64,000 nucleotides of DNA from NCBI RefSeq assembly GCF_000327485.1, contig NC_019943.1, positions 1,798,001-1,862,000 on the forward strand, in the 5' to 3' direction. The DNA comes from Methanoregula formicica SMSP. Its GTDB lineage: Archaea; Halobacteriota; Methanomicrobia; Methanomicrobiales; Methanospirillaceae. The notes under the pieces are model-generated. The model saw nothing but the letters and a program-made list of their open reading frames with translations, was not told the DNA's origin and did no database searches. Shown here in pieces: positions 48,713-64,000 of this stretch (positions are counted from its first letter, which is position 1; every line of letters starts with the position of its first letter). The translations under genes were made by a program, and so were the position numbers.

Positions 48713-49026
48713 GGTCTGGGACTCTTTTAGGGCCGGTATTTCTGCCCGTTGTTCTTTACATGTTGTTTTTCCATGACAATAAGGCTGATGGCAGGAGGAT
48801 ACGGTATTTCTTTGGATCTTCTGATTTTTTGGTCGGAGAACACATCGTGTTCATCTCCTGCTACGGGCCCTGTATCCTGTCGCATCCCCTATCACGCTCC
48901 GAGTTCACATCAAGACTCTTCCCCCGCGCATTACAGACCGTAACCTTCTTTCATATTCCGGACAAGTATCAATACATCATACGCCGGCCCGTGTTCCGGT
49001 TTATGTACACTGTCAGAGGTGTGTGT
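48713..49026 (+). other. Intergenic region and promoter of the carbonic anhydrase gene
   Basis: The region between the divergent GNAT and carbonic anhydrase genes has an open frame but no protein-like pattern; frame content is cysteine- and phenylalanine-rich noise. Near its end lies tcaatacatcata (48969-48981), a TATA candidate with a leader of about 25 bases, and the ribosome binding site CAGAGGTGTGTGT (49014-49026) directly before the ATG. Nothing else seen. Confidence 0.4.
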
Positions 49027-49611
49027 ATGGCGATTGACAAATTATTACTAGGGAACCTGAGGTTTCGGGAATCTGATTTCACCCCGAACATTGACTATTA
49101 CAAGGAACTGGCTGGCAGCCAGCACCCGGAGACCCTCTGGATCGGATGCTCGGACTCCCGGCTCCAGACCGGGCACATCACGCAGGCCCGGGCCGGCGAA
49201 CTCTTTATCCAGCGAAATATCGGCAACATCGTGCCGGTCCATGACTGGAACTTTGCAACCGTGCTTGAATACGCGGTCATGCACCTGAAGGTGAAAGACG
49301 TCGTGATCTGCGGGCACTCGAACTGCGGTGCAATCCGGGCGCTCGACAAGGAGAGCACGGATGCGTATATCCCGCTCTGGCTGAACAATGCGCGCGAAGC
49401 AAAAGACCGGATTGACTCAAAGATCGAGATGCCGCACACACCTGCGGAGCAGGAAAAGCGGTACCGGATGATCGAGCAGGAGAATGTCCGGCTCCAGATC
49501 GAGCACCTGTTCACGTACCCGCTCTTAAAGAAGGCCGTTGCAGAGAACCGCGTGGCAGTCCACGGCCTCTACTATGACCTTGGCACGGGTGCGCTGAGCC
49601 GGGTCTCCTGA
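49027..49611 (+). CDS. Beta-class carbonic anhydrase
   Basis: A 194-residue enzyme interconverting CO2 and bicarbonate. The zinc ligands are visible: cysteine in LWIGCSDSRLQT with the catalytic Asp-Arg pair, and His and Cys in VICGHSNCGAIRAL. Length and spacing are those of beta-class enzymes. In a CO2-reducing methanogen it supplies CO2 to formylmethanofuran dehydrogenase or bicarbonate to carboxylases. The ATG at 49027 follows a strong ribosome binding site; sequence upstream is not protein-like. Confidence 0.95.
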   Translation: MAIDKLLLGNLRFRESDFTPNIDYYKELAGSQHPETLWIGCSDSRLQTGHITQARAGELFIQRNIGNIVPVHDWNFATVLEYAVMHLKVKDVVICGHSNCGAIRALDKESTDAYIPLWLNNAREAKDRIDSKIEMPHTPAEQEKRYRMIEQENVRLQIEHLFTYPLLKKAVAENRVAVHGLYYDLGTGALSRVS

Positions 49612-49992: not shown

Positions 49993-51072
49993 TCATGGCG
50001 AGAGATAGGCCATGACCGGTGAGTCGAGATCAAACTGCCCGGTGTCGACCATGCGGACATGCGATCCGGTGACAGACTTGTACGTGGCAGGGTACAGTTC
50101 CCGGAACGTAATATCGGGATTTGCCCTGATTGCTGAAAGAACGCTGGACGTAAACTCGTCAGACAGCCACTGTTTGATCTCCATATCGTAGACTGCCCCG
50201 AGCGACGGCTCGTTCTTTGCAGCACCCGTCAGGTAGTAGATGCCCGGTGCAGTTGCGCCGGTAGCGATGCTCTCCCCAAAGCAGGTGTCAATGAAGAAGA
50301 CCATCTGCCGGTACCGGCGGTCCCGCGCCATTGCATCGGTGACCCTGGTGAAGTCGTCCGTGGTGAAAAACCCGTTCCCGTACCCAAATACAACCTCGCC
50401 CGGCGACCCGTGGCTGGCGATGTACACAAACACGTCCGTGCCGGCATCGCTCTCCAGTACGACCGGCGTGGATGCAGTCCTGTTGCCGGTCATGACATTC
50501 TTTAACGTCTCTGCGGTAACCGCCGGACCGGCATAATCCACCTGCGCTCCTGCGCGGACATTTTCCCCCCGGGGAACATTGTGGATATCTCCCCTCAGGG
50601 GATTTTCCGGGGATGTGGGGATATCGTCAAACGTCATGAGAATGATATCCTCGTCGGCAACCCCGTTCTTCCGGAGCAGAGTATAGATACTGAGGGCATC
50701 GGACTGGTGCCGGTAATTTCTCCACCCCTGCGACGGGCCGACGATCACGGCCCTGAATCCCGTCCTTTCACGGGTTGCAGAATAGGGAGCGGAATGCGAT
50801 GATAACGACATGAGCGCTTCGGATGCCCGGGTCCCTCCCGCGGATTCCTGATCGCTCTTGGATCCTGCCGTGAGGTTCTCCGAACTGATGGTTTTGATGG
50901 TCGCAAACGTCCCGTTGTCCACGGTCCAGTGGGAGTACCACGTGATAACCGGGTCAACACCCAGCACTACGTCATACTCCAGCCCGCCGCTCGCACCGGT
51001 GATCCAGGGCATTGCCCCGGTCCGGATATCAGTAAGGGCGGTGCGGACGCCCGTTTCGTTCCAGCCCGTCAC
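49993..51072 (-). pseudogene. 5'-truncated periplasmic-binding/C13 (legumain-type) peptidase gene
   Basis: The 3' part of this frame encodes an apparently complete C13 caspase-like peptidase domain: FRAVIVGPSQGWRNYRHQSD, the catalytic histidine in VFVYIASHGSPGE and cysteine in QMVFFIDTCFGESIATG. Before it lies TGWNETGVRTALTDIRTGA followed by a YDVV and ITWYSHW end, which resembles the C-terminal strand of a type I periplasmic-binding (LivJ-like) domain known to be fused to C13 peptidases in Methanomicrobiales. The frame then enters unrelated DNA at about 51060, with no signal peptide or binding-domain core. The gene has lost most of its 5' half and is joined to the nurA-like remnant. Confidence 0.65.
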
Positions 51073-51542
51073 GGAGGAGGAGGGCGCCTGCCCCCAGCTC
51101 CCGTGCCATCGTCTCCGTGACCCAGTACTCGACCGTGTCCCGGAGAACCTCTGCTGCCCGTGCACGGTCCTCATTTTTTAGCGGCTTTCCCGGCGGCTGG
51201 CCGAAGCAGTCCACGTAGAGCACGGGAAAGTCCGGGTTCTCCTCTTCCGGGCCGATGAGGGAGAAATGCAGGGGCGTGACGGAGCGTCTCGTGCGTTCCA
51301 TGTCCCGGAATGTTGTCTCTGCAGCCCGGACAACCGCAAGGGACATGCTGCCGGACTCATAAGAGCATGACATTGGAGCCGTCAACAGCGCAGACCTCGC
51401 CGCAGGAACGGGGTGTGCAGGAGATAAAATCGTCTTTTGTGATGCCGCAGATCTGCCGGAATTTCCCGATGAGATCGCCCGGGACCCTGGCCCGGATCCG
51501 GCCTGCCGCCTCGTTCACTGCACCCGCGTACTCGTCCTTCAT
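51057..51542 (-). pseudogene. Broken nurA-like nuclease gene (5' part)
   Basis: The ATG at 51542 starts MKDEYAGAVNEAAGRIRARV and leads to CAVDGSNVMLL, the first metal-binding aspartate motif of NurA nucleases, then a TGA. One extra base near 51360 explains it: the other frame continues ESGSMSLAVVRAAETTFRDM, then FSLIGPEEENPDFPVLYV and ends at GAGALLLRDGLER, resembling NurA's second aspartate motif. The sequence then stops being NurA-like and the C13 gene frame takes over. NurA works with HerA and Mre11-Rad50 in DNA end resection. The 3' half is missing. Confidence 0.6.
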
Positions 51543-51689: not shown

Positions 51690-53024
51690 TCAGATCAGCA
51701 GTCGCAGGGCAACGCGGATGTTCCGTTCGCTGAACGGTTTTAAGATGTAGCCCTCCGGATCAATATCCCGTGCCCGGTCGATGGTCTCCTTGTTGCAGCA
51801 GCTGGTGAGGAAGATTACCCGCGCATCCGTCGTCTTCCGGATCTCGGCTGCGGCAGCGATCCCGTCCCGTTTCCCGGGCATGTTGATGTCCATGAACACG
51901 AGATACGGGTGTTTTTCCGCAGCAACAACCACGGCCTCATCACCGGTCTGTGCCTCGATGATGTTTTCATACCCGAGGTTCTTCAGGTGCTGGATCAGGA
52001 GGCTGCGGAGGACCCTGCTGTCGTCCACGACAAGAATAAGGATGGACGTGTCGCACGTCTCCCTGGATTCGTCTGTCTCGTGCCCATTCCCGTCCATCGA
52101 CGCGGACGCGTCGTCGCCGGCTTTCCCGTTTCCTGTTTCTGCCGCTGCGCCGGCCCGGGCGTTCATGAACGACTTCCTCTGGTGGGCCAGGCTCTCCTTA
52201 AGCCGCGTCGCAATCTCCGTGTAGGCGTCAAAGGCACTCCTCCCGAGGCCGGTCTTCGGGACAACTTTTTTGAGCTCCTCCTTTGTGAAGACGTTCTCGA
52301 CAGCCTCGATGTCGTACACGTTGAGGTCACCGAGGCCAAAGACCGTGAAGAGGACCGGTATCCCGTCCCGGTCATTCACCCCGGCGAGCAGTCGTTTCCC
52401 GGCCTTTTTGATAAGCAGCGGGCGGATACTCTTGTCGCAGGTCTTGACAAGAAGGATGATTGCCGGCTCCCCGTCCTGCGAGACCGCGGCAAGGTCGTTG
52501 AGGTTAGCAATGACGACCAGTGCTGCACGGTCAAGGTTTGCCCCCTTCTGGAGAATGGTGAAGACAAACTTTCCCCCGCGCCGGGTGCAGTCCTCGTGGA
52601 TAACCCGGCTCAACAGCTCGCGGTCTTCCCGGCTGATCGTATCGATATCGTTCTGGAGGTCCGAACTGGACAAAAAGAGGCTGGAGAAGAGGGCCCCCCA
52701 TGCCATGAACAGGGTCCCCGGATCGGGTCTTTTCGGGCCGTCGGTAAAAGAGGATCCGAACAACTCAATCAGCTGCCGGGGCGTGGCCTTCTCGATCCAG
52801 GAGAGGCTGGAGTGCGGCATGGTCATGCGGAGCGGTGTTCCTTCGCCGGGTTTTGGAGTCACCGCTTTCTCGATGGTCTTTAAGATCCGGTGCTCCAGTT
52901 CCGAGAATTTCGCATCGTACTCCCTCCGGATCCGTTCTACATCCTCAGCGGTATATACGACCGGGGCGGGTTTGCCCTGATCCTTCCGCTTATTGTCACC
53001 GGATCGCTGCGGGGGTTTGGTCAT
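51690..53024 (-). CDS. Response-regulator protein with unknown N-terminal domain
   Basis: A 444-residue protein. The last 120 residues form a receiver: LILVVDDSRVLRSLLIQHLK, phospho-acceptor aspartate in LVFMDINMPGKRDGIAA, TSCC and lysine in EGYILKPFSERN. The first 300 residues have a coiled-coil start (DVERIRREYDAKFSELEHRI), then a compact domain (SWIEKATPRQLIELFGSSF, DPGTLFMAWGALFSSLFLS, IPVLFTVFGLGDLNVYDIEA) that I do not recognise. A linker rich in Gly, Asp and Glu joins the two. Such a domain order suggests a regulated N-terminal output, opposite to the usual receiver-first order. Confidence 0.8.
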   Translation of the reverse strand: MTKPPQRSGDNKRKDQGKPAPVVYTAEDVERIRREYDAKFSELEHRILKTIEKAVTPKPGEGTPLRMTMPHSSLSWIEKATPRQLIELFGSSFTDGPKRPDPGTLFMAWGALFSSLFLSSSDLQNDIDTISREDRELLSRVIHEDCTRRGGKFVFTILQKGANLDRAALVVIANLNDLAAVSQDGEPAIILLVKTCDKSIRPLLIKKAGKRLLAGVNDRDGIPVLFTVFGLGDLNVYDIEAVENVFTKEELKKVVPKTGLGRSAFDAYTEIATRLKESLAHQRKSFMNARAGAAAETGNGKAGDDASASMDGNGHETDESRETCDTSILILVVDDSRVLRSLLIQHLKNLGYENIIEAQTGDEAVVVAAEKHPYLVFMDINMPGKRDGIAAAAEIRKTTDARVIFLTSCCNKETIDRARDIDPEGYILKPFSERNIRVALRLLI

Positions 53025-55337: not shown

Positions 55338-56828
55338 ATGGATAGTTCATCTTTTGAAAACCTTCGAAGATTCTTTGATCGTGTCAAGAATGCCGGGTTC
55401 TTTGAACGGCTCTTTTCCTGGCAGGGTATTGTGTCACAGGGTTATGATGCGTTTTCTGAATACCAGCAGCTGCAGGGACTTGTTGTTGAAAAAGAAAAGG
55501 AAATTGCCACCCTTGTTTCAAAGAATCGGGAGAACGTACAGAATCTGGAGTATCAGATACAGCAGACAACCCAGTTGAAGCAGGATCTCTCTTCAGAGCA
55601 GACATACGTGCAATCGCTCAATTTGCGGATTACAGAAAAGGAGAGGGAGCGGGCAACACTGTCTGCAACCCTTGCCGAAACACAGGCAAACAATGATGCA
55701 ATAATTGATCAGCTGAAGGGGGAAGTTATCAATCTTAAATCCAGGAACGAAGAGTTGCTGCGGAAGATCAATGAAAGAGAGAACGAAGCCGGGGGATTTG
55801 TTGAATCCGACCGGAAAAACCGGGAGATTATCCAGAAACTGAACGCTGACTTTGCCGGTCTGACAGCCCGGTATGATCAGGTGAATCTTCAGTACACAGA
55901 ATCGCAGAAGACACTTTCACAATTACGCCAGAATGAGGAAGAGCGTGTCCGTGCGCATGACGCCCGGATCACCGAACTGATGGCGTTAAAGAAGCAGCTT
56001 GAGGATGACCGTCTCCGTGTTCAGGCTGAACGGGATGACGCGATCCGTGCCGAATTCTCTGAGATGGAACAGACATGGAGGAGACATGAGGAGGCAGTTG
56101 AACAGACCCTGCGTTCTATCTGCCAGCGGCATACCCTAGAGTACTGCGATAAGGAAAAATTTCCACTATCCGGAAAGAAACCGGACAATGCGCTGCTCAT
56201 TGCCGATCAGTACGTTATCTTCGATGCAAAGAGCCCGAAAAATTCCGATGAACTTGGCAATTTCCGTCAATACATTAAGACACAGGCCGAGGCTGTAAAA
56301 AAATACACCAAGGAGGATAATGTCAAAAAAGATATTTTCCTTGTCGTTCCTGCAAATACCCTGGATTATCTCGACGAAGTCCATCTTGACATGGCAGAGT
56401 ACCAGGTCTATGTTGTCACGCACGACAGCCTTGAACCGATCATTCTCGCCCTCAAAAAGATCGAGGATTACCAGTTTGTTGATCAGTTAAGTCCTGAAGA
56501 CCGGGAAAAAATTTGTCATGTGATCGGCAAGTTCGCCCATGCAACTAAACGCCGGATGCAGATTGACACGTACTTCTTTAACGAATTCCTCGCACTTCTC
56601 AAGAGCTGCGAATCGCTCCCTGAGGATATCCTCAAGAAAGTTGTGGACTATGAAAAAGCCGAGAAGATGAATCCCCCGATGGAGAAACGCAAGAAACTTA
56701 TCCCGATCAAGGAACTTGAGCACGATGTCAAAGCCATCACCAAGGAGGCGGAAGCCCGGGAGATCGATGTTACGGCCGTGACAAAAGAGAAGATCGAGAC
56801 GATCCCCCTCAACAAGTTCCTGGAATAA
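55338..56828 (+). CDS. RmuC-like coiled-coil nuclease
   Basis: A 496-residue protein. A long coiled coil occupies about residues 45-255 (EYQQLQGLVVEKEKEIATLV onward, with heptad-like Leu/Ile spacing). A nuclease-like domain follows: KKPDNALLIADQYVIFDAKS carries the PD...DxK pattern of the restriction-endonuclease fold as in RmuC, with an aspartate-alanine-lysine core at about residues 297-299. After it come NFRQYIKTQAEAVKKY and DIFLVVPANTLDYLDEVHLD, typical of RmuC-type proteins. RmuC limits recombination at inverted repeats. The tail (about 440-496) is Lys/Glu-rich. It precedes two RecB/AddB-type genes by 39 bases. Confidence 0.7.
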   Translation: MDSSSFENLRRFFDRVKNAGFFERLFSWQGIVSQGYDAFSEYQQLQGLVVEKEKEIATLVSKNRENVQNLEYQIQQTTQLKQDLSSEQTYVQSLNLRITEKERERATLSATLAETQANNDAIIDQLKGEVINLKSRNEELLRKINERENEAGGFVESDRKNREIIQKLNADFAGLTARYDQVNLQYTESQKTLSQLRQNEEERVRAHDARITELMALKKQLEDDRLRVQAERDDAIRAEFSEMEQTWRRHEEAVEQTLRSICQRHTLEYCDKEKFPLSGKKPDNALLIADQYVIFDAKSPKNSDELGNFRQYIKTQAEAVKKYTKEDNVKKDIFLVVPANTLDYLDEVHLDMAEYQVYVVTHDSLEPIILALKKIEDYQFVDQLSPEDREKICHVIGKFAHATKRRMQIDTYFFNEFLALLKSCESLPEDILKKVVDYEKAEKMNPPMEKRKKLIPIKELEHDVKAITKEAEAREIDVTAVTKEKIETIPLNKFLE

Positions 56829-56867: not shown

Positions 56868-59800
56868 ATGCCAGCACAGACCCCTTCGGGCAACCTGATT
56901 CCGGATATTGCTTACGAATCCGGGCTTCCCGGGGATTGTCTGTCCACGTTCATCTCCCGGTTTGTTACTGCTGCAAAGGAGGATCCCTTTTCCACCTGGC
57001 TCATTCTTCCTACAGAGCGGCTGGTCTCTGAAGTCAAGCAGCGACTGATGGCTGATACTATCCCCTTTCTTTCCTCACGCATCTGTACTCCTGAGGGATT
57101 TTGTGCGATACAGCTGGAGGAACACCGGACCACCGAGCGGATCATCCCGGAGAATGAATCGAAGATGCTGCTCTCACAGATCCTTGAGGATAATGCCGGT
57201 GATCTCCGGTTCTTTGTCCGGCGGGGTCATGTGTCAACGGGCACGGTCAGGGATCTCAGGGAATTAATGAAAGTCATCCGGTTGCGAAAGATTGTATTCC
57301 CGGAATGCCTTCTCGAACTTGAGAGCGAGAAGAGCCGGCAACTGGATGCAATTATTACTGAATACACCAGACACCTGCGGGAAACCGATCTTTATGACAG
57401 TCATACTCTTCTCGAATGGACAATCGACCACCTGAACCGTTCCGGTGAATCAGGATTAGGAACCGTAGTTATGTACGGGTTTCACGATCTCCAGACCCTC
57501 GAACAGGATCTTGTTGACACGATAGCCGAACATGCCGGGAAATCCTTTGTCTTTGTCCCTGAGGGAATCGATCAGAATGTTTTCCGGGGCCGGCCCCGGT
57601 CCGGAAAACAGCCCGGTTTCGATCCCGCATCCCTCCGGTCCCGGATAACAGGACTGTTCTCGGAAACGGACGCTCTCGATGCGGGGGATTTTTTCCACAC
57701 CCGGACATTTTCCTCACGATATGCAGAGATTTCCGGCATTGCATCGGAGATCTGTCGCCTTAACCGGGAAGGCATGCCCCTTTCCGATATTGCCGTGGTT
57801 TTTTACGACCTGCGTGACAATCGTGCGCTCATCGAGGAAATATTCGGGGATTATGGGATTGCATGGAATTGCCGGATCGGCCCGCCGCTCTCCGCTTCCC
57901 CCCTCATCCAGTTCCTTACGAATCTTGTCGATCTCTCTCCTGGCGGGTATACCCGGGAAACCATGATCCGGATCATTGGCAGTCCCTATTTCCGTCGGGG
58001 AAATGTCCCGGGCAGTACCTCCTCTCTGGATGCGTCCGAAGTTGATCTTGTCTCGCGCTATGCCCGGATTGATGGCCCTCATCCTTCCTGGAGCAGACAA
58101 CTGGAGTGGCTGCGTACGGAACTTGCCGATCCAAACAAGGCAAAGAATTTCCCGGGTATCAGCGTCCATACGGTTGACCGGGTCCGGGAAGGAATCCGGA
58201 TTCTCCAGAACGATCTTGATGCAATCAGCCATGGCACATCCCTCCAGAGCCACATCAGGGCATTCCGTGAATTCCTCACGTCATGGGATCTCCCGCAGAT
58301 CTTTTTCGCACCGGATGCTGCCCTTAAAGAGCGGGAGATCCAGATTTATGAAAAATTCTGCAAACTCCTCACCGCACTGGAACATGCCTCCTGGCACCCG
58401 GATAATGCACCCGTCGACGGGAAGAAATTCGCACGGATGATAACATCCCTGGCAGAGGATCCGGATGAGAGCGGACTTGAGGATGCCGACGGGGTAACCG
58501 TACTGGGTCTCTGGGAGTCCCAGCACATGAATTACCCGGTGGTATTCATCGGGGGTCTTGTTGAAGGAGTTGTCCCCCGGCTGACAACACGCCTCCCATT
58601 TATGAACACCCTGGAAAATGCCCGGATGGGGACCCGGTCTCTTTCAGAAATCCTCAGAGAAGAGCAGTATTATTTTATCGCATCGCTGCTGTCCGCACAG
58701 AAAGCCGTGTACCTGAGCGCTCCGCTGGCCGATGGAGAGAAAACGCTCCTTACGTCAGCGTTTTTTGAGCGGGTCCGCATGAGATCCGGGGATCTTCCCT
58801 GGCCGGAAATTCCAGTGGATATTTGCTCTGCCTCCCTTCGCTGTAGTGCGATCAATGCTGGAACGGCCATCCAGGATGGCCGAATCTGCGAAGCAAGGGG
58901 AACAATACCTAGCTCTCATCCAATCAGCGATCTTGCCGAACGCATTAACATGGAACGCTATCACCGGACCGGCTCGTGTGATTCCTCGTATGATGGCATC
59001 CTGTCCGGAGATGAGACAATTCAGGAAGCACTTGCCGGCCGCTATGGGCCGGATCACGTGTATTCCCCGACAAGCCTTGAGACTTATGCCAACTGCCCCT
59101 TTGCCTACTTCCTGGGCCGGGTGATCAATCTCAAAGAATTACCGGAAGTGGAGTCGAACCTCTCGGCCAGCGATCGCGGAACTGCCATCCACGATATCCT
59201 GAGTGCCTTTTACCGGCAGTGGCGCTCTGCCGGTCACAACAAGGTCAGTCTCGCTTCTCTGAACGATGCCACGGAGATGATCCTGAAGATCGCATCGGAA
59301 GAACTGGCACAGTATTCCTTCCAGAGCCCGCTCTGGGACGCGACCCGGATCCTGATGCTCGGGGACAACCATACCGGGCCCGGATACTTTGAGAGATTTT
59401 TGATCCATGAAGCGGGTGAAGAGAATTCACCGCTCATTCCCTCGCGATTCGAATTCTCCTTTGGCATGGAGGCGGGTGAATCGGATGATCCATCATCTGT
59501 TCCGGAACCGGTTGAACTTGTTTCGCAGGATGGCGGACAGAAGATGTTCATCCGGGGCCGGATCGACCGGGTCGATCTCACCCCCGACGGGCAGTTCGTG
59601 ATCTATGATTACAAGTCCGGCCTGCAGCATCCCAAAGCAAAAGAGATCGAGGCCGGGACTGCCCTGCAGCTGCCGCTCTATCTTCTGGCTTTCGAGAAGA
59701 TCTCCGGCAATCACGGCGTTGGCGGGGGATACTACAAGATACGGCGCGAGATCGCCCGGAGCCTCGTGCTCGCGGACCCGGTTGCAAAAGACCTGATGAT

Positions 59801-59999
59801 CTCCCGTGTCCGTCCATCCGCGGATTTTGCCGGCACGATCCGGCACTCCCGCGACTGCGCCTTTGCCTATATCGAGGGGATCCGGAACGGCCGGTTCCCG
59901 CTACCGGCCGAAGAGGAATGCCCGAATACGTATTGTGAATTCAGACAGATCTGCCGCTTCGATCCGTACCGGGTATTCCAGTCGGGGGAGGAGACCTGA
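56868..59999 (+). CDS. AddB-like nuclease with Fe-S cluster motif
   Basis: A 1043-residue protein. Its first 700 residues have the layout of an inactive UvrD-like helicase (FSTWLILPTERLVSEVKQRL, then LLEWTIDHLNRSG, IGSPYFRRGNVPG, GLWESQHMNYPVVFIGGLVE). The C-terminal PD-(D/E)XK nuclease has histidine in GTAIHDILSAFY (about 772), aspartate in RIDRVDLT (about 900) and DYKSG (about 911). One cysteine before it (TYANCPFAYFLGR, about 742) and three after (CPNTYCEFRQIC, about 1018-1029) reproduce the AddB [4Fe-4S] staple. AddB works with AddA to process DNA ends. It ends one base before the helicase gene. Confidence 0.88.
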   Translation: MPAQTPSGNLIPDIAYESGLPGDCLSTFISRFVTAAKEDPFSTWLILPTERLVSEVKQRLMADTIPFLSSRICTPEGFCAIQLEEHRTTERIIPENESKMLLSQILEDNAGDLRFFVRRGHVSTGTVRDLRELMKVIRLRKIVFPECLLELESEKSRQLDAIITEYTRHLRETDLYDSHTLLEWTIDHLNRSGESGLGTVVMYGFHDLQTLEQDLVDTIAEHAGKSFVFVPEGIDQNVFRGRPRSGKQPGFDPASLRSRITGLFSETDALDAGDFFHTRTFSSRYAEISGIASEICRLNREGMPLSDIAVVFYDLRDNRALIEEIFGDYGIAWNCRIGPPLSASPLIQFLTNLVDLSPGGYTRETMIRIIGSPYFRRGNVPGSTSSLDASEVDLVSRYARIDGPHPSWSRQLEWLRTELADPNKAKNFPGISVHTVDRVREGIRILQNDLDAISHGTSLQSHIRAFREFLTSWDLPQIFFAPDAALKEREIQIYEKFCKLLTALEHASWHPDNAPVDGKKFARMITSLAEDPDESGLEDADGVTVLGLWESQHMNYPVVFIGGLVEGVVPRLTTRLPFMNTLENARMGTRSLSEILREEQYYFIASLLSAQKAVYLSAPLADGEKTLLTSAFFERVRMRSGDLPWPEIPVDICSASLRCSAINAGTAIQDGRICEARGTIPSSHPISDLAERINMERYHRTGSCDSSYDGILSGDETIQEALAGRYGPDHVYSPTSLETYANCPFAYFLGRVINLKELPEVESNLSASDRGTAIHDILSAFYRQWRSAGHNKVSLASLNDATEMILKIASEELAQYSFQSPLWDATRILMLGDNHTGPGYFERFLIHEAGEENSPLIPSRFEFSFGMEAGESDDPSSVPEPVELVSQDGGQKMFIRGRIDRVDLTPDGQFVIYDYKSGLQHPKAKEIEAGTALQLPLYLLAFEKISGNHGVGGGYYKIRREIARSLVLADPVAKDLMISRVRPSADFAGTIRHSRDCAFAYIEGIRNGRFPLPAEEECPNTYCEFRQICRFDPYRVFQSGEET

Positions 60000-60000
60000 T

Positions 60001-63000
60001 ATGGCAGCGACACCACGACAGGGCGAAGCGATCACAACCCACGACCGGAGCATGGTGGTCACGGCCGGCGCCGGGACCGGTAAGACCTACGTGCTTGTGC
60101 AGAAATATATCGACCTGCTCAAAACCCGGCCCGTCACCGTGCCCCAGATCCTTGCGCTGACGTTCACCGATAAAGCCGCGGCCGAGATGAAAGAGCGGAT
60201 CCGGGCCGAGATTCTCCGGCACGAAGGCCCGCGGTGGGAGAAGGCCGCTGAGGATTTCATGATTGCGCCGGTCCAGACGTTCCACTCGTTCTGTGCGCAG
60301 GTGCTCCGGGAATTCCCGATCGAAGCCGGCTTGGAACCCGGCTTTGTCGTGCTGGACGAGCAGCAGGCCGGCCGCATCCGCAACCAGGCATTCGATGAAC
60401 TCATTCACTCCCCGCAGGATGGACCGGTCAACGAGGCGCTCGTGCATGTCCTCTCCATCACGGACCAGACCAACCTCCGGAAGATCCTCTCTGCACTCTA
60501 CGAGCGGCGGGAGCGCTATGCACAGTTCTTTGCGGCTCTTGATGCTGATGAGACGCAGGTGCTGGAAACCTGGACGAGAGAAGTATCCGAATTCCGGGAC
60601 GAGGAGATTGCAGCACTCCGGAACGATCCCTCGTTCTCCTCATGTGTTCGTACCCTGCTGGGGTTTGCATCCGCGTATGCAGGTGTTGATGACAAGGCTG
60701 CACAGTTCCTGGGGGAGATCCAGCCCCTCCTTTCCCGACTTTCTGATCCTGAAGATTCAGGAAAATTCTGTTCGGCTGCTCTTGAGCTGGAACGGAAGAG
60801 ACTTGGGAATATCGGGAGCAAAAAGAACTGGAGGGGCAATGATCTTGCTGAGTTCAAGAGTTCACGCAAGAGCCTGAACGACATTCTCGTACAGAAAATT
60901 TCCCTCTTCCGGATGACGGTGGATCCCTCCGACCCGGTGATCACCGGGTCGATCCGGTTCCTGCACGACCTGTCCTTTGTGTTCTCCCGGTACCTGGAAC
61001 TGGTAGGGACCGGCAAGGGTTCTCTTGGGGGCCTGGACTTTTCGGACCTGATCCTCCATGCCCGCCGGCTTTTTCTTGAGCAGCGCGATCTTGTGACCAC
61101 GCACTTCATGCCCCGGTTCCGGTACATCCTTGTTGACGAGTTCCAGGACACGGACCTGACGCAGTTCGATATCATCCTCTCTATTATCGGGACGCCGTCC
61201 CCTTCCACGGATTGTCTCTTCATTGTCGGGGATCCCAAACAGTCGATCTATCTCTTCCGCGATGCAGATGTGACCCGGTTCAAGGAGGCACAGGAGATCA
61301 TCACCAAGGCATGCACGGGAAGGAAGATCGATCTCGATACCAGTTTCCGGAGCACGAAAGAGGTGATCGGCCTTGCGAATTTCCTCTTCTCCCGGCTCCT
61401 TGCATCCGCAGAAAAACCGTGGGAGTTCGGGTACGAGCCGGTCAGAATATCCGGAAACCGTGCGGATCACACCGGTTCCGTTGAACTCCTCCTGCCGCCG
61501 AAAGGAAGCGATGCTGCCGGCACCAAACGGAACGAGGCTGCGATGGTTGCCCGGCGGATCCAGTCCGCGATCCATTCGCGACCCCTTACGGTGTACGAGG
61601 AACAGCCGGACCATTCGTTTGCCCGGCGCCCGGCCCGGTATGGTGATATCGCGATCCTGCTCGAACAGCGGACCAACCTCCCGCAATACATTTCCGCGCT
61701 GGGCGAGTACGGCATTCCCTTCTATGTCCACGGGGGGACCGGGTTTTACCACCGGCAGGAAGTGTACGATCTTACGAACATCCTCTCGTTCCTTGAATAC
61801 CGGCATGACAATGTCAGCCTTGCCGGCATTCTCCGGTCCCCATACTTCGGCCTGCCGGATACGGAACTTTTCCACATTGCGCAGGAGAACGGCCGGACGC
61901 TCTGGGACAAACTCGGGAAGTACGCGAGGAGGACCGGCCCTGGGCCGGCAACCCGTGCCCGCGATCTTCTCGCATCCTGGCAGACATATGCCGGCCGGAC
62001 CGGCCTGGTCTCCCTGCTGCGCCGGATTTTGTCGGAGTCCGGTGTTTACACGGTCTATGCAGCGCTCCCGGCCGGCGAACAGATCCTTGCCAACATCGAG
62101 AAACTGGTTGCCATGGCCCGGGCCAGAGAGGAGGCCGGGAATTATTCGCTTGCCGACTTCACGACGGATCTCCGGCTCGCGATGGAGGATGACGAACGGG
62201 AAGGCGAGGCCCATCTCGATGCCCTTGCCGAGAATGCTGTCAACATCATGACCGTGCATGCGGCAAAGGGGCTGGAGTTCCCCATTGTCTTCGTGCCGGA
62301 CATGGGCATGAGCTTCCCGAACACTACTTCGCCGATCCTGATCGGCGACAACCCGCTGATGGTGGGCGTGAAGGTCCCGAATCCCCGGGAGAATTTCGAG
62401 ATGACCGAGAGTCCGGTCTTCCTTGCATTGCGCGAGCAGCAGAAGCAGAAGGAGCGGGCCGAACGGAAGCGTCTGCTGTACGTTGCCCTCACCCGGGCCC
62501 GCGACCATCTCATCATGAGCGGGACCATGCCGGAGGATTCCGGGTTGTCGTACGATCTTTCCCGGTCCCGGATCGAATGGATCTTCACGGCGTTTGGCGT
62601 GACCGGGGATGCCATCGCGACCGGCGGGCTTGATCTCGAACTGCCGGACGGGACCGGATCGATCAGGTTATCGATCGTCTCCGATTCCGATTCGATCCCG
62701 GCCGAAATCGGGCGGGTGGAACCGGAACTGATTATTGTGCCGAAGGAATGTGCGGGGATGTGCGGGAGCTGGCAGCCACCGGAGTACAAGGTAGGGAAGC
62801 GACGGATCCGGCCGGTGTCGGTTTCCGAACTGGAGAAGGCAGAAACAAAAATCCCGGAACCTCATGAAAAAGTCGCATCAAAGTACCTGCCGGGGGTCGA
62901 AGGCGCAAAGAAGGGAACGATCATCCACGAAGTGCTCCGGGGCCGGGATGCTGCGACGGTTTTGCGCGAGTATGGCGAGTACTCGGAGGAGCATGTCCGG

Positions 63001-63318
63001 CAGTGTGAGGAGATCCTGTCGGCGTTTCTCAATTCTGATTTGATGAAGCGGGTGAAGCGGTCGTATTGCGAGGTGCCGTTTGTTGTGACGGTTGATGGCG
63101 GGCCGGTTACCGGGAAGATCGACCGGTTGTGTGAGATGGAGGATGGATCGTGGGTTGTGATCGATTATAAGTCAGAAACATCTGCCGATTATGCAGCGGT
63201 TGCGGAGGGGTATGCTTTTTCGATTGCGGTTTATGTGGAGGCTGCCTGTCAGATCATACGAGGAACGGTAACGGCGGTAGTACATTTTACGGAGTTGGGG
63301 ATGTTTTGGAAGAGGTAA
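60001..63318 (+). CDS. AddA-like UvrD-family helicase-nuclease
   Basis: An 1105-residue helicase-nuclease, start ATG 60001, one base after the AddB-like stop. Motif I TAGAGTGKTY (residues 21-30), Ia LALTFTDKAAAEMKERI, II LVDEFQDTDLTQ (about 378), III FIVGDPKQSIYLFRDADVT, IV/V MTVHAAKGLEFPIVFVPD (about 752-770) and VI LLYVALTRARDHLI match superfamily 1A. The C-terminal nuclease has GTIIHEVLRG (about 973), TGKIDRLCEM and VVIDYKSE (about 1052). With its partner it forms an AddAB-type pair; the order addB-addA is that of bacteria. The last 300 bases are AT-richer. Confidence 0.92.
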   Translation: MAATPRQGEAITTHDRSMVVTAGAGTGKTYVLVQKYIDLLKTRPVTVPQILALTFTDKAAAEMKERIRAEILRHEGPRWEKAAEDFMIAPVQTFHSFCAQVLREFPIEAGLEPGFVVLDEQQAGRIRNQAFDELIHSPQDGPVNEALVHVLSITDQTNLRKILSALYERRERYAQFFAALDADETQVLETWTREVSEFRDEEIAALRNDPSFSSCVRTLLGFASAYAGVDDKAAQFLGEIQPLLSRLSDPEDSGKFCSAALELERKRLGNIGSKKNWRGNDLAEFKSSRKSLNDILVQKISLFRMTVDPSDPVITGSIRFLHDLSFVFSRYLELVGTGKGSLGGLDFSDLILHARRLFLEQRDLVTTHFMPRFRYILVDEFQDTDLTQFDIILSIIGTPSPSTDCLFIVGDPKQSIYLFRDADVTRFKEAQEIITKACTGRKIDLDTSFRSTKEVIGLANFLFSRLLASAEKPWEFGYEPVRISGNRADHTGSVELLLPPKGSDAAGTKRNEAAMVARRIQSAIHSRPLTVYEEQPDHSFARRPARYGDIAILLEQRTNLPQYISALGEYGIPFYVHGGTGFYHRQEVYDLTNILSFLEYRHDNVSLAGILRSPYFGLPDTELFHIAQENGRTLWDKLGKYARRTGPGPATRARDLLASWQTYAGRTGLVSLLRRILSESGVYTVYAALPAGEQILANIEKLVAMARAREEAGNYSLADFTTDLRLAMEDDEREGEAHLDALAENAVNIMTVHAAKGLEFPIVFVPDMGMSFPNTTSPILIGDNPLMVGVKVPNPRENFEMTESPVFLALREQQKQKERAERKRLLYVALTRARDHLIMSGTMPEDSGLSYDLSRSRIEWIFTAFGVTGDAIATGGLDLELPDGTGSIRLSIVSDSDSIPAEIGRVEPELIIVPKECAGMCGSWQPPEYKVGKRRIRPVSVSELEKAETKIPEPHEKVASKYLPGVEGAKKGTIIHEVLRGRDAATVLREYGEYSEEHVRQCEEILSAFLNSDLMKRVKRSYCEVPFVVTVDGGPVTGKIDRLCEMEDGSWVVIDYKSETSADYAAVAEGYAFSIAVYVEAACQIIRGTVTAVVHFTELGMFWKR

Positions 63319-63379: not shown

Positions 63380-64000
63380 TTAGGGTTTCTTAGTCTGTGA
63401 AGATTGAGTGGGTGGGTGGATATCCCCCTCACTTGATTTTTGCCATTCTTGGGCGATAATATCCCAAGAAACATTACGTTTTTCTTTATGTGTCCATACA
63501 TTCCAGAAGGATGGGTCTGATGACTTCGGGCGGCATTTTTCTTCCAGTTCATTAATTTCGACAAGAATTGGGATCGGTGCTGCATATCCAAGAAGGATTC
63601 CTTTTCGAGTAGGTAAAATTGGAAGTTCTCGTAATAAGTTCCCTAAATTATCTGGAACGAATTTACTGACAAGGTCTTGATCTTTGTCATTCACGATTCT
63701 GTGAAGTAAAAATGTATTGCACTGAGATAAAACTGTAGAAGATAATTCAGCAGGTCTTTGTGAACACAGAAGTAATCCTAGGCCAAATTTTCTACCTTCC
63801 CGCGCAATCCGTTCAAATGTTTTACGACACATACTATCTGTGGAATATTCATTTTCGGAAAACGGAACTTGTCGAATAAAAACATGTGCCTCATCTAAAA
63901 CCATAATTGTCGGTAATGTGTCACCAATCATTCTTCGGTAACGTTGGAGGGCTTCAAAAATAATTCTAGATATTACTGCCACAACTAAATGAATTACATC
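63380..64000 (-). CDS. HerA-type ATPase, C-terminal part (5' end outside the window)
   Basis: The minus-strand frame is open to the right edge, so only the C-terminal 207 residues or so are seen. Features: TIMVLDEAHVFIRQ (Walker B with DEAH), the arginine finger region IAREGRKFGLGLLLCSQRPAELSS, and TFLLHRIVNDKDQDLVSKF, all typical of HerA/FtsK-like DNA translocases (DUF87). The tail is basic and polar. HerA pumps DNA in end resection with NurA, or in Sir2/HerA-type defence. Base composition is clearly lower in GC than the rest of the window, which suggests separate origin. It is convergent with the AddA-like gene. Confidence 0.82.
   Translation of the reverse strand, partial: DVIHLVVAVISRIIFEALQRYRRMIGDTLPTIMVLDEAHVFIRQVPFSENEYSTDSMCRKTFERIAREGRKFGLGLLLCSQRPAELSSTVLSQCNTFLLHRIVNDKDQDLVSKFVPDNLGNLLRELPILPTRKGILLGYAAPIPILVEINELEEKCRPKSSDPSFWNVWTHKEKRNVSWDIIAQEWQKSSEGDIHPPTQSSQTKKP

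Follow-up and report, generated by a model that had tools for sequence, protein, structure and literature searches.

A deletion scar beside AddAB genes in Methanoregula formicica and the likely loss of an archaeal end-resection operon

NurA and HerA are regarded as the standard, and often essential, end-resection machine of archaea. Both genes are essential in Saccharolobus islandicus, and their disruption failed in Thermococcus kodakarensis (PMC12977600). The proteins (NurA, PF09376; HerA, PF01935) are encoded in the archaeal mre11-rad50-nurA-herA operon. Bacterial AddAB, known from the B. subtilis structures 3u44 and 3u4q, combines adjacent AddA and AddB with a UvrD helicase, two PD-(D/E)XK domains and four invariant AddB cysteines, and a HerA helicase also forms part of the SIR2-HerA anti-phage system. 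In non-orthologous gene displacement, an unrelated system of presumably equal role supplants an older one.

We analyzed a 64,000-nucleotide stretch of the Methanoregula formicica SMSP genome (the window), which corresponds to bases 1798001–1862000 of a single 2,820,858-bp contig in a genome that is 99.97% complete. Coordinates refer to this window, and related genomes are given by number (SMSP is G000). What remains of the archaeal operon in SMSP is the 5′ half of such a nurA gene, while G036 and G009 keep the operon.

A nurA remnant joined to the end of a peptidase gene

On the minus strand, an ATG at 51542 starts a NurA-like frame that stops at 51357. This first part of the remnant (51360–51542, minus strand) spans about 61 codons and has 85% amino acid identity to residues 1–61 of G028 NurA; its stop results from an extra base. 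Past 51357, the homology continues in another frame (51064–51359, minus strand) to about codon 157, with 85% identity to G002 over 98 residues. At the DNA level, 51587–51064 (minus strand) is 85.5% identical to G028 across 524 bp. The only gap in this alignment stems from an additional base in the window at about 51360 (CTCTTATGAG versus CTCCTTGAA in G028), which confirms the frameshift that the first-pass annotation had read near 51360. G028 NurA is intact (338 aa, PF09376 at 8e-13), and since other species have intact orthologues of 340–420 aa (E down to 2.3e-52), the NurA-like part does not reflect chance. A full NurA domain at the PF09376 cut-off is not present, with about 157 of 338 codons left in two frames. 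A second nurA was sought and none was found, and the PF09376 profile has no match anywhere in the complete genome at E 0.001. The herA gene that overlaps the end of nurA in G028 and G002 is likewise missing from the SMSP genome. Upstream of nurA lies a response regulator gene (51690–53024, minus strand), which is present in G028 in the same order with 84% identity.

Below the nurA remnant, the window contains the 3′ half of a PBP/Peptidase_C13 gene (49993–51076, minus strand), with the C13 domain at about 50050–50751 and the 5′ half, comprising the N terminus and Peripla_BP_6, missing. DNA of G007, the closest C13 relative, aligns from 51077 downward at 89%; the nearest named relative of this gene is a Methanoregula MAG (a contig scan gave two loci, one of which is the G007 contig). 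We placed the join at 51074–51064 (minus strand) because the G028 nurA and G007 PBP-C13 homologies overlap nowhere else, a position within the 51055–51075 range where a change of frame to a PBP end and C13 domain had been noted previously. These 11 bases, CCGTGACGGGC, can be aligned to both parent genes: G028 nurA reads GCGGGACGGGC and G007 PBP-C13 reads CCGTGACCGGC. The deletion ends lie in a short, GC-rich stretch that is similar in both parents. As a side observation, the G007 contig (L048, 1–30) has its start just 26 bases upstream of the position that corresponds to the join, either by chance or perhaps because the population carries both alleles.

Reading across the join is a 393-aa hybrid ORF (49993–51174, minus strand), a chance ORF in which 32 nurA codons in the wrong frame precede the PBP end and C13. 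Residues 33–393 are 90% identical to the G007 protein, and residues 142–375 match Peptidase_C13 (PF01650; 1.7e-50, 172 bits). An intact PBP-C13 relative of 709 aa has Peripla_BP_6 at 44–321 and Peptidase_C13 at 458–692; homology in the window begins at about residue 369 of this protein, and the N-terminal Peripla_BP_6 is therefore lacking. The hybrid frame is not conserved, with no homologue in the other 38 genomes of the genus. The hybrid is a deletion scar, an ordinary deletion pseudogene rather than a fusion gene.

Ancestral gene order and the extent of the deletion

In G028, the genes run response regulator, pirin, nurA, herA, carbonic anhydrase and GNAT, the neighbors match those of the window, and nurA and herA are both whole at exactly the same site. 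The downstream neighbor in the window, a carbonic anhydrase gene (48940–49611, plus strand), directly follows herA in G028. In G007, the genes after C13 are carbonic anhydrase and GNAT, as in the window, and the PBP sequence extends upstream of the join point as far as the contig edge. G036 contains mre11, rad50, nurA and herA with an intact PBP-C13 gene 3.8 kb downstream on the same strand, so the intact genes do occur in a relative in the order that the first-pass annotation had foreseen.

From these arrangements, the ancestral minus-strand order would have been response regulator, nurA, herA and PBP-C13 peptidase. A single deletion spanning ~3.2 kb or more would have taken the 3′ half of nurA (~0.54 kb), all of herA (1.6 kb) and the first half of the PBP-C13 gene (~1.0 kb, all sizes from intact relatives); nurA additionally carries the +1 frameshift. 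The earlier proposal that two broken genes had been joined, with loss of the nurA 3′ and peptidase 5′ halves, was sound as far as it went and incomplete in that all of herA was also removed. Canonical herA has no orthologue in the complete SMSP genome (best match, 24% identity), and the genome also lacks an orthologue of, or close match to, Mre11 of the operon type. We searched for the PBP N terminus elsewhere in this genome and found no convincing copy, and we rejected its translocation to another site. Thus, the description of a "damaged NurA copy" was correct about nurA and understated the loss, as NurA, HerA and the operon Mre11 are all absent and AddAB is present.

Does a partner HerA remain at 63.4 kb, as was first supposed? 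The gene at this position (63380–64000, minus strand, continuing to 65503 beyond the window) matches the PADLOC HerA family at 8.5e-302 and is adjacent to a SIR2 gene at 65500–66759 (PADLOC SIR2, 4.1e-187; SIR2_2, 1.4e-10), with an overlap at 65500–65503. It is therefore the HerA component of a SIR2-HerA anti-phage pair, which accounts for the "HerA" at 63.4 kb, and we rejected it as a NurA partner. This helicase is 24% identical to the repair HerA and has no relation to the nurA remnant.

The deletion would have been tolerable with an AddB-AddA end-resection helicase-nuclease already established next to the operon, an arrangement common to G028, which keeps both systems. We give a probability of about 0.78 to the reading that the scar is a deletion pseudogene left when the archaeal end-resection operon was lost following the arrival of AddAB, and that the deletion was kept owing to AddAB. 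On this reading, AddAB would perform end resection in SMSP, and the redundancy would have permitted loss of the operon.

AddAB and exchange at the nurA-herA site

The AddB-AddA helicase-nuclease is encoded in the window 5 kb from the nurA remnant. AddB (56868–59999, plus strand) has an ADDB_N-like region, a PD-(D/E)XK nuclease domain and four putative Fe-S cysteines (746, 1021, 1026 and 1032) that are invariant in 18 relatives; its best match of solved structure is B. subtilis AddB (3u44_B, 2.5e-11), and its TIGR02773 match (4.5e-31) is below the equivalog cut-off. AddA (59806–63318, plus strand) is an SF1 UvrD helicase with a C-terminal nuclease (PF00580, PF12705) and is closest to AddA, with B. 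subtilis AddA as its best match of solved structure (3u44_A, 4.4e-71) and a TIGR02785 match of 3.4e-103. The motifs AGAGTGKT, DEFQDTD and G.IDR...DYK are conserved in AddA, and the helicase and both nuclease motifs of the pair are intact and invariant among relatives. The addA ORF overlaps addB by ~190 bp, and in several relatives homology starts at residue 66; since it begins there, the true addA start is probably near 60001. Preceding addB is a gene (55338–56828, plus strand) for a coiled-coil protein with a PD-(D/E)XK-looking C terminus (GKKPDN...VIFDAK), a motif that suggests an RmuC-like protein; the structure model (pLDDT 64) was too poor for a fold search. This gene is kept before addB in five relatives (G008, G014, G034, G037 and G136), and its product is possibly a third member of the AddAB cassette.

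We searched for HerA and AddB in 39 genomes of the genus and then in 159 genomes of the order, entering the presence sets for counts and contrasts by hand from the search tables. Among the 70 Methanoregulaceae genomes that are at least 85% complete, 32 have only orthologous HerA, 25 only AddB, 12 neither and one (G028) both (Fisher 8e-9); AddB and orthologous HerA are thus almost mutually exclusive within the family. In a codon-based rpoB′ tree of 65 genomes, which represents a single marker gene, 14 independent and well-supported pairs differ in AddB, with HerA changing in the opposite direction in a mean of 10.4 and in the same direction in 0.5 (median sign-test p 0.006). Some AddB-positive family genomes carry a distant HerA (43–55% identity), and counting this type weakens the signal (Fisher 1e-3; pairs, median p 0.04). 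Both systems are missing from seven family genomes, mostly incomplete MAGs, in which absences can be assembly gaps. AddB was not found in G007, whose assembly is fragmented into 810 contigs. Outside Methanoregulaceae, family f4 has HerA together with AddB in 25 of 32 genomes, and family f6 in none of 20. We therefore rejected strict exclusivity across the order; the coexistence in f4 indicates that AddAB permits, and does not force, loss of nurA-herA. Separately, a 64%-complete MAG (G017; L103, L005) contains both intact nurA-herA and AddAB, and could be either a genuine intermediate of the G028 kind or a mixed bin. In this MAG, an apparent herA scar next to AddB was set aside, as it lies at a contig end and may be an intact gene that was cut off.

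In several genomes, AddAB occupies the nurA-herA site, often beside herA scars. The strongest case is the sister pair G036 and G037 (support 100/99), which are 95.4% identical over 5,866 bp until identity ends 111 bp from the herA stop; past this breakpoint, G036 has herA-nurA-rad50-mre11 and G037 has RmuC-like-AddB-AddA. In G014, AddA-AddB-RmuC-like is followed by herA codons 488–538 and then the conserved neighbors, while in G136 these neighbors lead directly to RmuC-like-AddB-AddA. AddB also lies near herA 3′ scars in G029, G145, G166 and G129. Between the herA scar and AddAB, G029 contains SbcC and SbcD (L102, 7744–12665), and weak SbcD-like matches occur close to AddB in G166, G165 and G129.

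Other scars were also observed at this locus. In G030, in which AddAB was not found (the genome is fragmented), an independent deletion scar joins the nurA start to the herA end beside the conserved neighbors (L111, 11367–11965). Decayed herA 3′ pieces lie downstream of intact nurA-herA in G009 (L109, 8356–10226), G020 (L108, 6043–6339) and G038 (L107, 8856–9041), as if a second nurA-herA version had replaced an older herA at the same locus. We considered and rejected an integrase att site at the herA 3′ end: most decayed copies have stops or gaps and look like old decayed copies.

The order of events may be read from a few genomes. SMSP, G028 and G007 form one clade (100/100; rpoB′ codon tree). 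The AddAB genes of SMSP and G028 group together and share both position and orientation (82.6% over 6.4 kb); since G028 keeps intact nurA-herA, AddAB would have come first. The break would be recent, since dN/dS is near intact-gene values both in the nurA remnant (0.178 versus G028; 0.179 for two intact genes) and in the C13 part (0.108 versus G007; 0.08–0.10 for intact neighbors). AddB itself moves horizontally, as G142, from another genus, groups with Methanoregula AddBs, and G145 and G166, from two genera, group together.

Alternative explanations and comparison with known systems

Could the genes really be intact, and the join or extra base be an assembly or sequencing error? Even finished genomes can contain a lone erroneous +1 base, and our analysis used the assembly alone. 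However, the genome is a single 2.82-Mb contig that is 99.97% complete, herA, the nurA 3′ end and the PBP 5′ end are nowhere else, and the same operon was independently lost in several related genomes, making an artefact very unlikely. It is also very doubtful that the locus encodes a working fusion or programmed-frameshift protein. Although the C13 part is free of stops, retains the His/Cys motif region (SHGSPG, DTCFG) and has low dN/dS, that value can predate the deletion; moreover, the stop at 51357 ends the nurA frame, the 393-aa ORF reads nurA out of frame, the binding domain and N terminus are missing and the hybrid lacks homologues in other genomes of the genus. Insertion or translocation of a PBP-C13 fragment into nurA, with separate loss of herA, would fit the lack of a PBP-C13 gene between herA and carbonic anhydrase in G028. 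We consider it improbable, since the same C13 gene adjoins carbonic anhydrase and GNAT in G007, where PBP continues upstream of the join, the G036 PBP-C13 gene is downstream of herA on the same strand, and a single deletion accounts for all the losses.

There is a real, if minority, chance that the link to AddAB is a side effect, in that the locus is a hotspot at which cassettes for defence or repair turn over, with AddAB acting in defence rather than as a replacement of NurA-HerA. SIR2-HerA adjoins AddAB in the window, intact herA is followed by decayed herA 3′ copies in the three genomes described above, and both systems coexist in family f4; AddAB might indeed serve defence. Nevertheless, loss of nurA-herA tracks the presence of AddB over independent contrasts and not locus occupancy alone, and AddA and AddB best match a bacterial repair enzyme, with both nuclease motifs kept. 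Returning to loss of the operon after AddAB arrival, the mre11-rad50-nurA-herA operon and AddAB would swap repeatedly at this locus within Methanoregulaceae. We think it fairly likely that a horizontally moving AddAB cassette of bacterial type, travelling with an RmuC-like gene or SbcCD, has repeatedly taken over from the operon both in place and in function, with SMSP captured just after the break and G028 just before it.

Given the standing of NurA-HerA, a whole family in which it is dispensable, with dispensability closely tied to AddAB and with related species showing the stages before, during and after, makes this recurrent in-place exchange worth a specialist's time. Whether archaeal resection can pass to AddAB, with AddAB feeding RadA, should be directly testable, as should the reason for which the swap is bound to one locus. 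We found no literature linking AddAB and HerA-NurA in Methanomicrobiales; our coverage was partial and is weak evidence of novelty.

How does the locus compare with the systems described above? Relative to the archaeal operon, SMSP has a truncated and frameshifted nurA, a deleted herA and no Mre11 orthologue that we could find. The SMSP AddAB shares with the bacterial enzyme the adjacent genes, helicase, paired nuclease domains and AddB cysteines; it differs in being archaeal, in scoring far under the TIGR equivalog cut-offs, and in being preceded by the RmuC-like gene in five relatives and flanked by SbcCD genes in others. Finally, while the supplanting of one system by an unrelated one resembles non-orthologous gene displacement, the exchange in Methanoregulaceae differs in occurring in situ and recurrently within a family, with intermediates and scars.
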